Source: Monodelphis domestica
Lineage: Eukaryota > Chordata > Mammalia > Didelphimorphia > Didelphidae
Direction: 5' to 3'
NCBI RefSeq assembly: GCF_027887165.1
Contig: NC_077233.1
Location: 178,045,506-178,109,505 of the forward strand
Length of the DNA stretch: 64,000 nt
Below, piece after piece: positions 46,246-51,129 of this stretch (position 1 is the first letter of the stretch; every line of letters starts with the position of its first letter). The notes beneath the pieces are model-generated. The model saw only the letters and a list, made by a program, of their open reading frames with translations, was not told the DNA's origin and searched no databases. The position numbers and the translations under genes are program-made.

Positions 46246-46569
46246 TTCATGGGTTGGCTAGCTTGTTTACTTCTAGGAAAATCTACAGGTATGCAATATT
46301 CTGAGGACAGAAATAGTCCAGGTACCACTTGCAGGTGGGAAAGCCTATGTTGTGGCTACATTCAGGTTCTGGAAAGGGAGTGCAGGTGCCTCAGGAGGCT
46401 GAAGCTGGTTGAAAGGTCTGTTGAGACATTACAGAGAAGGAATATGCATCGTGGATTATATCATATGTCTTTTGTACTATTTCTATCTCTGATTATGCCA
46501 TTACTAACAGAAAAAAAATCATTGGAACATTTTCCTTAATATATCTTGGCATTCCTACTTCCTAGCTGA

Positions 46570-46605
46570 GTGCTTTGAATGTAGTAGGCATTTAATAAAT
46601 ATTGA
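46570..46605 (+). mobile_element. L2 terminal fragment
   Basis: 'gtaggcatttaataaatatt' is the L2 3' terminus. Confidence 0.5.
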
Positions 46606-46606
46606 A

Positions 46607-46812
46607 GCAGTCAGGTGGCATGGAAGCCAATCGAATGCTGGAAGGAAGATCTGTGTGTAAAGTCTGCCTCAGATACTTTCTGGTTTGATCCTAGGCAATT
46701 TATTTAATTTCTCTTGGACTCACTTTCCTCATCTGTAGGATAGAGATAGCCCTTACAAGGCTTTTGGGGGAGAAAAATATATATAAAGCACTTCAAGTGC
46801 CATATAAATACC
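46607..46812 (+). mobile_element. CORE-SINE
   Basis: 'tcaggtggcatggaagccaa', 'cctcatctgtaggatagaga' and 'tataaagcacttcaagtgcc'. Confidence 0.8.
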
Positions 46813-46819
46813 TTATAAA

Positions 46820-47050
46820 AGGAACAAGGTAGCTTAGTGGATGGAGCCCTGGACCAAAAGTCAGAAAGGCCTGTGTTCAAATTTGACCTTACACACTAAT
46901 TAAGTGTGTGGCTCTGTACTAGTGCCTTAACTTCTGTCTGACTCAATTTCCTCATCTGTAAAAGAGGATTATGATAGCACCTACCTCTCAGCATTGTTGT
47001 GAGGATAAATTGAGATAACCTGAAGTTGTTTATAAAAATGCTGATGATTA
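46820..47050 (+). mobile_element. CORE-SINE
   Basis: 'gcttagtggatggagccctg', 'ggcctgtgttcaaatttgac' and 'cctcatctgtaaaagaggat'; full length. Confidence 0.85.
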
Positions 47051-47424
47051 TTCTTTTTATATTAGTTAATATTGTTTGACTCAAAGTCAATTCATGTCTT
47101 ATTGAGGGAGAAGAAAAAAATAGGAAAAATAACAAAAACCATTCCTAAAGAAGATTGTAAAAGGGACTAAGCTTAAGCATTTTATGCTCTGGTTCCTTGT
47201 TCCTCTACACTGTGAGGATCTAGATCTAGATCTTGAGTGTTGGGTCTTTTGATTGACTTTCCTGCTAGGTTTGAAATACTGTCGGTAGAATTGCTTTGAT
47301 TATCAGAGAAACCTTTCAGTGCTACTGTGCTACTTTGTTCCATGATTTCTTTTAAACTTTCAAATCTTATCTCTACCACTTATTAGCATTCTGAGGTTGG
47401 GCAAACCCATTTATCTTTCTTTTT
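47051..47424. other. Unassigned; CORE-SINE scrap at about 47365-47424
   Basis: A 65-codon antisense frame (47182-47379) is unrecognised and partly covers the SINE scrap ('accacttattagcattctga'). Confidence 0.35.
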
Positions 47425-48400
47425 TAAATTTTAAACAAGAAGTTTATTTAAACAACAAGGTGTTTGATTTGAAGGGAAAACTATCTAGGATATATTTCTT
47501 TATAGTAATTTATTCCTACAGAAAGCCAGAGATTGCTCTATATGTAACAGCTAAGTAAAAAAAAAAATTGTCCTTGGTTTTGCAGTGATAAAAGGAAAAC
47601 ATAGAAATTATTCATTCAAGGTATATGAGGATTTTTTTTTGGTGGGTTTTGGTTATTCTTATTAAACAGTGAGAGGAAAGATAAAAGTTGAATGAGCATA
47701 TCACTAGCGGAGAAAAATGGATATTTTCACAGAACCAGTTTGTTTTCTCCCCTCCCCATCTCCATTTGATGTCAGTCAAAACATGCCATTAGTCATATAC
47801 TTAAAACCTTATGCATTATGGCTGGGCAGATACACTAGTTACTTTATGTACAATAAAGGAATGGGGAGAGGGAATAAAGGAAGAGAGAAAACTATAGTGG
47901 ATATCGATTAACCAAATATTGGTGTTCTAATTGTGAATGAATTTTTTTTCTTCCTTTGGAGCACAGTTCTGGAGTAGAGTTATAGGTTCTCTTTTTGGTA
48001 AACACCTCCAGTCTGCTGTTGGAATATATCAATTGTATCTTCATTCTGCATTTCCAACTGTGCAGGTGTGTCTGTTTCATTGATTGCCTGCCCATGAAAT
48101 CGGAATCTGATGTGCCTCATTGACCAACCCTTTGGTTCGCAATAGGCTTTCATTAGTTTCCTAAGTGGTGTTTGCTTCTTAATCTTAAATTGCACTACTG
48201 AGCTGCCTTGCCCTGCCACCTTGAAATTAATGTGGTCCTTGCTTTCAGTCTTGATTCCTTCTTTAGGCTTCGTGTTAGCCATGGTGAGTCTGACGGAGTC
48301 CTCAGCTGCCACGTCACAAAAGGGGAATCAAGATGGTTTGCACCAAGGAAACAGGGGGAGAAGTGGCAGCAGAAAGAGGATGGGAAGGAGGAGGAAGAAG
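47425..48400 (-). pseudogene. SUMO2: SUMO2 processed retrocopy, mRNA-length
   Basis: An intronless minus-strand copy of the whole SUMO2 mRNA. On the minus strand come 5' UTR-like sequence ('gcaaaccatcttgattcccc', then 'gaggactccgtcagac' just before the ATG), the coding frame, and a 3' UTR ending in AATAAA (complement of 47443-47448) with 'cttcttgttt' after it, as I recall for SUMO2. UTR blocks such as 'ctccagaactgtgctccaaa' and 'tgtacataaagtaactagtg' keep their order. A degenerate A-rich tail lies at about 47417-47431. The exact 5' end and target duplication are not clear. Known mammalian parallel: SUMO4 is also a SUMO2-derived retrogene, arisen independently. Confidence 0.92.
47980..48282 (-). 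CDS. SUMO2-like retrogene ORF, 100 codons, stop lost
   Basis: Begins at the ancestral SUMO2 start (MANTKPKEG...) and encodes an uninterrupted ubiquitin-fold SUMO of 95 residues plus five extra. About 20 of 95 positions differ from human SUMO2 (roughly 79% identity by eye), with no gaps. Retained: the N-terminal chain-linkage consensus IKTE (SUMO2 VKTE at Lys11), the SIM-groove core VVQFKIK, and the C-terminal QQQTGG needed for SENP cleavage and conjugation. Changed: His37 to Gln, Arg50 to Pro, Asp63 to His and Pro66 to Ala, some of which touch SIM or Ubc9 contacts. The ancestral TGA after GGVY reads CAA, which extends the tail with QKENL; this would be removed if processing occurs. It may be an expressed retrogene or a pseudogene that escaped disruption by chance; no promoter is evident. 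Reading upstream in frame from a GTG adds ten residues of former 5' UTR, which I do not use. Confidence 0.8.
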
Positions 48401-49394
48401 AGGAGACATAAATCTGCTCATCCCTGAAGAACCTGTTTGCTTCTCTGCGAAAGGGGGTTGAGGATAGCTGTAGTAATGAAGAGACAACATACTCTTGGAG
48501 ACAGGTCCTACTCTAGACACGCCTATTATCGACCGTAAGAATCTAGTATAGTACAGATAGCCTTCCTACATGGTAGTGGTGGTGAGGCAGAGTTAGGGAT
48601 ATGGTGTTCCTATGATATGAAAAAGCTCTCATAAAGTTTTTTAACTCTCCTTTCCTATCAGAGAAGAAGTCGATCATAGGTTTGATCATAAAAAAGAACC
48701 TGTTGTACAAAGGTATTGTGAAGATCAAAATAGATGTCTGTTGAAGTACTTTGCCTACCTTCAAATAGTATGTACATGTTTCTATTAAAAAAATTCTCCT
48801 GGGCCCACAGGGGCAGGGAGACTGTGCCACTCCTTTCCTCATTAAAGGGCTCTCTGCTCTGTACCCAAGCATGTAGTTTGGACTGGGTTCAATACTAAGT
48901 GAGCCTGACCTCTGATGGTAAAGGTTGGGTTTCCTTTTCTGGTCCTCTTCAGTTCCTTATGCACCTGCCTGGAGCTCTAAGATAACATTATTTATAGTTT
49001 AGATTATGGCTCCTTTCAACACTTTCCCTAAAAAGTGAGGAGTAGAAAAATATGCAATCTACATTATGAACTGAGGATGGGGAAGGCATTTATTTCCTTC
49101 ACACAGTAGGGATGCTAAACGTGAAATATAGGTCTACATTTGACAAAAACAGGACAGGTCTCAGTAACTCAAGTTGGGAATGTTAATAATACTTAAAACT
49201 CATCATAGTGTAAATCAGCTTACAGGACTGATAATTAGCTATTTTATATTTCATCTTGGCTCTGTACTGTCCAAACAATGTTTTATACATGTTTTCTGGT
49301 AATTGCTAATTTTCTTTTTGGTGTAAACACTTCTAAGAGTGGAAGAAGGATCTTTGTACTTCTTCAATTGGTTTTAAGGTTGCCTCCAAGTATG
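48401..49394. other. No feature recognised
   Basis: Unique-looking sequence between the SUMO2 copy and an L1 end. Confidence 0.45.
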
Positions 49395-49665
49395 GATTTT
49401 TTTAAAAGATATTTTATTTTCCCAATGATAGGTATTAACAATTTTCTACATACATTTTACAAAGTTATACTATCTAAATTGCCTCCCTCCATCCTTTCAT
49501 TCCTCCCCTCCTAGAGATGGTAAGCAATTTGATCTGAGTTATACATGTATTATCATGCAAAACATATTTCTATATTCATTGTAAGAGAAAAATAATATAA
49601 AACCAAAACCCCCAAATGAAAACACAAATAAACTAAAGTATACTTTGATATTTATATGGTCGTGT
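49395..49665 (-). mobile_element. L1 3' UTR, antisense
   Basis: 'tattttattttcccaatgat', 'agatggtaagcaatttgatc' and 'atacatgtattatcatgcaa' follow the antisense L1 end; 5' truncated. Confidence 0.8.
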
Positions 49666-51129
49666 CATTTTCAGGGTTAGTGAATATTTGCCCAATATCA
49701 GGAAACAACAAATATATAAGATGAAGCCCAGAAGTACCTAGATAGGACATATCCTTTAGATGTCATGAGTTCACAGTAATATGCAAATTGGGCTAGCAGT
49801 GAGAAGGCAAGCTGCCTCTTCCTTCTCTCCCTCCCTCCCTCCCAAAAGTGGCTTGATATAGTCCTGACCACTGGCAATCACAGAAGAAGAGTAGGGTGTG
49901 ATGACCAGCCCATATGAGCATGGATTGGTCAGTTTTAAACATCCAATGAATTATCAGCTCTTTTGGCTCCACAGTCAATGATGGGACTCAAACATCTGAA
50001 AATACAACCTCTTAACTAGAGTTACACATGTCCATGAGCATCCCCCAAAGTTCTCACATGGTTATTCGGATCCAGGAAGGGTGGCTCTGAGCATGCTTCC
50101 TGGGATAGTCTTCATTACACATAATAGTTGTTATAATGATGACTGAGTTGAGAAAACTCCATTTGTTGCCACAAACAAGCCACTTATTTTGATTCTTTCT
50201 GAGTTGCATCTTGCATTGCCCCCAAGATGTTCTTTCTTTGTTAGTAAATCTGAGGAAAGGTGCCAGGAAATTCAGTATAGTACTGAGAAAATTAAAGTCA
50301 GGCTCCAAGACCTTGTCTTGCACACTAAGGAAAAATACTTTAGTCATAGTGTGAGGGCTTACCAAAGGCAAAATGGGCTTGAAAAACACCACTGGTCTCT
50401 GAGTTGAAATGTTGTGCTCACAGTGAATATTTATTGCCTAGTTCTCCAGCTTGGCCTCTGATAACAAATCTTTCCCTTCATGTCACCTTCTGGATTAGAC
50501 CAGAATTAATTTCACAGCCAGGACCACCAGTAACATATTTGACCTGGTAGTGGGCACTGCAGGAAATTCTATTTGGATTGAAATTTTAGGAATTCCCTTC
50601 ACTGCCTATTTTTTTGTAGTGAAGCGGGATAAATAGCAATAAGATCAAACTTGGAGAAATGCCCATGATTGTCCTATTCCTGACATTTGGGAAGATTCAA
50701 TTTATTTTTGCTATAATAGTTTTCAGTTACTTAGAACACAAACTACACTTATAGACAAATGAAGTCATCTCACTAATCCTCTATTATTGGTAAAATGAAC
50801 TCTTCTACATAAAAGTGTTTTCTAGATAACTGAAGCTTGCCCTTTTAAATAGCAATAGGAATTTAACCATTTTAAATTATGGCACATTTCTAAATTATAT
50901 CATGTAATTCGCCTGAATCATAAATAAGATTATACCAAATGAAACTTAGCATGTTCATAATTCAGAATAATCAGTATAAACATGGGATGCCCTTGGAGGC
51001 AAGGTGAAATAGTGACAAGTATATTGGACACTGAAAGACTTTAGAACTCTATTGCATTCACCATTCTTGATTTCAGAGATGTATAGGTAGAAGGGACGTT
51101 AGCCATACCTTGCTCCCCAACCCATAACC
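49666..51129. other. Mostly unassigned
   Basis: About 1.4 kb of AT-rich unique-looking sequence. Weak CORE-SINE-like words at 51003-51110 are too diverged to call. Confidence 0.4.

Follow-up and report, generated by a model that had tools for sequence, protein, structure and literature searches.

Our analysis of a 64,000-nucleotide stretch of the Monodelphis domestica genome (the window; NC_077233.1, positions 178,045,506 to 178,109,505) indicates that the SUMO2-like open frame it carries very probably belongs to an old SUMO2 processed pseudogene, which has stayed open by chance and from which most likely no functional SUMO is made. By its sequence, the locus at 47428-48404 on the minus strand is a processed retrocopy of a spliced SUMO2 mRNA, as the earlier note had proposed. 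It matches the spliced mRNA of a four-exon parental gene and is intron-free, the parent's exons being directly joined in the alignment. Its features, in window coordinates, are as follows.

47428..48404, minus strand: entire SUMO2 processed retrocopy, as delimited by its alignment with the spliced mRNA of the parent (search within the same genome, alignment)
48283..48404, minus strand: SUMO2 5' UTR remnant, shorter than in the longest sister copies (122 aligned bases, 74.6% identity)
47980..48282, minus strand: open frame of 100 codons plus stop, 95 codons SUMO2-derived and 5 extra at the C-terminal end (translation)
48244..48255, minus strand: IKTE, residues 10-13, VKTE in the parent
48004..48021, minus strand: QQQTGG, residues 88-93
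47995..47997, minus strand: native stop position, TAA in the parent and now CAA (stop loss)
47980..47982, minus strand: new stop TAA, five codons downstream, where the parent has CAA (alignment to the parent)
47443..47448, minus strand: AATAAA poly(A) signal, at the same alignment position as in the parent
47410..47427, minus strand: decayed A-rich tail (approximate boundary, judged from the sequence)

The copy had been described as mRNA-length, and it does run from within the 5' UTR across the coding region as far as AATAAA in the 3' UTR, but its 5' end is shortened. The match begins at position 147 of the modelled spliced parent, whereas the longest sister copies begin at 34-36, and the 5' end is thus about 110 bases shorter than theirs. 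The poly(A) signal is followed by an A-rich tail, as in processed pseudogenes. No target-site duplication was recognised in the approximately 100 bases examined at each end; such duplications are commonly lost from old copies. No CpG island was found at the copy, the observed/expected CpG ratio being at most 0.36 across 46501-50750, and the adjoining stretch at 46825-47035 may resemble a marsupial tRNA-derived/CORE SINE. We suggest that a spliced SUMO2 mRNA was reverse transcribed and inserted, presumably by LINE-1 machinery because the introns are lost and an A-rich tail is present, and that since then, in the absence of detectable selection on its protein, the copy would have accumulated about 0.13-0.14 substitutions per site.

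A search of the same genome (3.59 Gb, 13 contigs) identified the parent as the four-exon SUMO2 gene on contig C2, at about 213.15-213.17 Mb. SUMO3 was rejected as the parent, the window copy matching the exons and UTRs of SUMO2. The genome also carries a compact, intron-containing SUMO3-like gene at about C2:543395527-543395974 (L073, C2:543394501-543397500), which ends in GGAC and lies in sequence of very high GC content; its last three coding exons are separated by introns of about 80 and 105 bases. Exon 4 of parental SUMO2 (L010) is without two bases after the stop that most aligned copies have; L012 is likewise without them.

The 303-nt frame, with its ATG starting at 48282 and its stop ending at 47980 on the minus strand, had been reported as unbroken. 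The parent's first 285 coding bases indeed align to it without gaps, showing 36 differences and no internal stop; the native stop, however, has been lost. The frame ends TAC-CAA-AAA-GAG-AAC-CTA-TAA where the parent has TAC-TAA, and the product is 100 aa long compared to 95 for SUMO2, with a VYQKENL tail beyond the GG. The Pfam Rad60-SLD (SUMO-like) model matches the frame with E=3.1e-18, and the best PDB matches of the protein are SUMO2 chains. As far as its primary structure goes, the product is SUMO-like and contains the GG for conjugation. The start context CACCATGG is retained, and the two motifs singled out previously, QQQTGG and IKTE, were both read in the frame. VKTE or IKTE is also retained in many broken sister copies, and we give little weight to QQQTGG because 3 of 18 broken copies have it as well, with another 2 gapped at this point.

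The genome contains at least 26 SUMO2 copies that include coding sequence. We aligned 31 fragments (the window copy and 30 loci), five of which (L023, L026, L037, L039 and L040) contain no coding sequence, and left several short own-genome SUMO2 matches outside the alignment. Stops interrupt the parental frame in 24 of the 26 copies, the two open ones being the window copy and a second locus, L017. Stops recur at CGA codons (codon 50 in 14/26 copies and codon 61 in 11/26), a pattern that CpG decay would produce; in the window copy codon 50 is CCA and codon 61 is still CGA. The tree and the counts below use 20 of the 26 copies. The six omitted, L031, L032, L033, L035, L036 and L038, are short or badly gapped and all have in-frame stops. 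The 20 copies minus the window copy and L017 form a pool of 18 broken copies.

To simulate the odds of chance survival, we let the present parent mutate with the spectrum and the indel rate seen in these 18 broken copies. After 26, 30 and 36 coding substitutions a neutral copy remained without stops or indels with a probability of 0.031, 0.019 and 0.009, respectively, in agreement with the earlier expectation that a neutral copy of such divergence is usually broken (about 97-99%). Extrapolating the simulation slope through the origin and using all differences from the parent, which makes the estimate a rough one, 0.54 chance-intact copies are expected among 19 (L017 excluded), and the probability of at least one is 0.44. 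With a single-copy survival of approximately 0.9-3.1% (36-26 substitutions) set in a family of this size, one survivor is therefore unremarkable: the window copy is individually lucky, yet unsurprising as the luckiest of its family.

Selection on the window copy was assessed from its private changes, defined as sites where at least 75% of the other rows have the parent base and no more than two others share the change. The ratio of nonsynonymous to synonymous changes was 14:6; the 18 broken sisters have 347:100, stops being counted among the 347 (Fisher p=0.42). The count for the window copy covers 20 of its 36 differences, the remaining 16 (8 nonsynonymous, 8 synonymous) being shared or ambiguous and uncounted. 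A 64-state codon model fitted by maximum likelihood on a 21-row tree put omega at 0.80 in the window copy and at 0.91 in the pool. On this main tree, with only the copy's own branch re-optimised along the likelihood profile, fixing omega at 1 cost a 2dlnL of 0.28, at 0.3 a cost of 5.5 and at 0.1 a cost of 25.8. The 95% range interpolated from the profile is about 0.35-2.0, and values below about 0.35 are excluded on the main tree. Because that tree is poorly supported (support values 7-83), we re-fitted omega on star trees of 21 rows and, after six more copies had been removed, 15 rows. The estimates were 0.57 and 0.55; omega=1 was not rejected (2dlnL 2.24 and 2.68), and omega=0.25 was excluded (2dlnL 5.2 and 4.3). 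Star trees place parental synonymous changes on the copies and so lower omega.

The dN/dS comparison that had been proposed as a check, run here on the parent and copies of the same genome, thus leaves a value near 1 compatible with the data within wide limits, and purifying selection with omega well below 1, as in functional retrogenes, was not found for the window copy. Its divergence from the parent is 36/285 (12.6%) in the coding sequence and 71/556 (12.8%) in the 3' UTR, and 13.8% and 13.0%, respectively, in the broken pool; its branch length in the whole-mRNA tree is 0.139. We detected no selection on the protein of the window copy, in tests of low power with 20 private events. The open frame had been put down to either constraint or luck. 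Constraint is unsupported, since the private ratio is like that of the broken sisters, omega=1 stands in three fits and coding and 3' UTR divergence are equal, and luck is the most likely cause given the family-wide odds.

The other open copy lies on contig C2.

C2:83185161-83185445, minus strand: coding match of L017 (= L041) (own-genome search)

We regard L017 as a strong candidate functional retrogene of SUMO2. Its predicted protein is 97% identical to human SUMO2; relative to the parental protein it carries two changes only, E13K and L40F, and just 2 of the 19 coding differences between copy and parent are nonsynonymous. The private ratio is 1:14 (Fisher p=2e-8 against the pool), the omega estimate is 0.037, and a value of 1 is rejected (2dlnL 34.3; 27.6 and 32.7 on the star trees). 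The copy is flanked by an exact 14-base target-site duplication and retains a remnant of its poly(A); its UTRs have diverged, the 3' UTR by 10.4% from the parent (window copy, 12.8%). L017 retains 11 of the 16 parental CpGs, compared to 0-5 among the 18 broken copies and the window copy, and has 25 CpGs in total; its GC3 is 0.60 against 0.48 in the parent, and its GC4 16/33 against 10/32. Of the private coding substitutions of L017, 14 of 15 are AT to GC, and the broken copies show 158 AT>GC and 207 GC>AT. Since its 3' UTR also has an AT-to-GC excess (19:7, compared to 342:312 in the pool), a regional bias is possible; the GC bias may reflect codon-usage selection or local biased gene conversion. 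The K11 sumoylation consensus includes an acidic residue, which E13K would remove, and chain formation may thereby be altered.

With L017 in the same genome, the window copy could also be viewed as a SUMO2 retrogene specific to its lineage, whose constraint is weak or lies in the past, encoding a SUMO with an extended C terminus and altered surfaces (R36K, H37Q, R50P and Q51K, which we presume lie in the SIM groove and first helix), beside the strongly constrained retrogene at C2:83.185 Mb. We consider this unlikely; if it were true, the SUMO2 repertoire of the genome would have been enlarged twice by retroposition. Quite unlikely, in our judgement, is a functional, weakly constrained SUMO2-like retrogene that would be transcribed, with SENP proteases removing VYQKENL and the product acting as a conjugated SUMO or a non-conjugated decoy. 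The open frame, the retained TGG cleavage motif and K11 context, the omega point estimates below 1 and the chance survival of a single copy at only about 1-3% would all suit such a gene. However, omega=1 was rejected in none of the three fits, constraint of L017 strength is excluded (omega 0.1), and the coding sequence has diverged as fast as the 3' UTR. CpG and GC4 decay also argue against it: 1 of 16 parental CpG sites is retained (0-5 in the 18 broken copies), and GC4 is 7/32 compared to 10/32 in the parent. So do L20F, D26G, R50P, Q51K, E79Q and V86I, all at positions identical between SUMO1 and SUMO2, and additionally L53W and D63H. Such identical positions (residues 17-93), defined with the human SUMO1 and SUMO2 sequences, hold 6 of 15 changes in the window copy compared to 183 of 337 in the pool, a difference towards constraint in direction but not significant (p=0.30). 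Very unlikely, in our view, is a once-functional retrogene that was retained for a while, with its first changes under constraint, and was later released to evolve neutrally. Such a course would fit the intermediate omega (0.55-0.80) and the open but extended frame, and the V base of the window copy at residue 94, common to 3 of the 20 other rows (the remaining 17, parent included, have the I base), is compatible with an early insertion, but conserved positions are not significantly spared and the tests on these data do not separate this course from plain neutrality.

We therefore prefer to regard the window copy as a processed pseudogene with a frame open by chance. What speaks against this is its low single-copy survival and the retention of the start context, QQQTGG and IKTE; the private ratio of 2.3 compared to 3.5 in the pool and three omegas below 1 also point away from neutrality, none of them significantly. 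Processed pseudogenes usually, but not necessarily, have a disabled frame, and here only the native stop is lost. Taken together, these results show that, where many sister copies exist, an open frame by itself says little in favour of a retrogene, and that the sister copies of the same genome serve as a neutral control. The same control also yields a positive, L017, in which the protein is nearly unchanged and synonymous sites and UTRs have diverged. L017 would be a SUMO2 retrogene independent of SUMO4.

Our literature search found no paper on opossum SUMO2 retrogenes, on marsupial SUMO2 processed pseudogenes or on SUMO2 retrocopies together with SUMO4. In human, a further 17 SUMO2-related pseudogenes are reported in PMC12751084; each of them has lost its start, acquired premature stops or large deletions, or become highly divergent. 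Like the window copy, the human SUMO2 processed pseudogenes are mRNA-derived SUMO2 copies dispersed in the genome; unlike them, the window copy has a start and an open frame, with only its native stop lost. SUMO4, too, is a SUMO2-derived retrocopy with an open frame, and it has been proposed to be functional. PMC12751084 describes it as an ape-specific retrogene, and because of this the insertion in the window is independent of SUMO4, as the earlier note had maintained. In SUMO4, P90 instead of Q90 hinders maturation, according to PMC12751084 and PMC10778024; the window copy differs in retaining Q90, in showing no detectable selection and in its longer tail. Mordstein and colleagues (PMC7181179) report that GC4 of functional retrogenes lies above that of their parents (median +11.5 points) and that of pseudogenic copies below (-2.9), a contrast that separates L017 from the window copy. 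Both are SUMO2 retrocopies with an open frame, and only L017 is under strong purifying selection.
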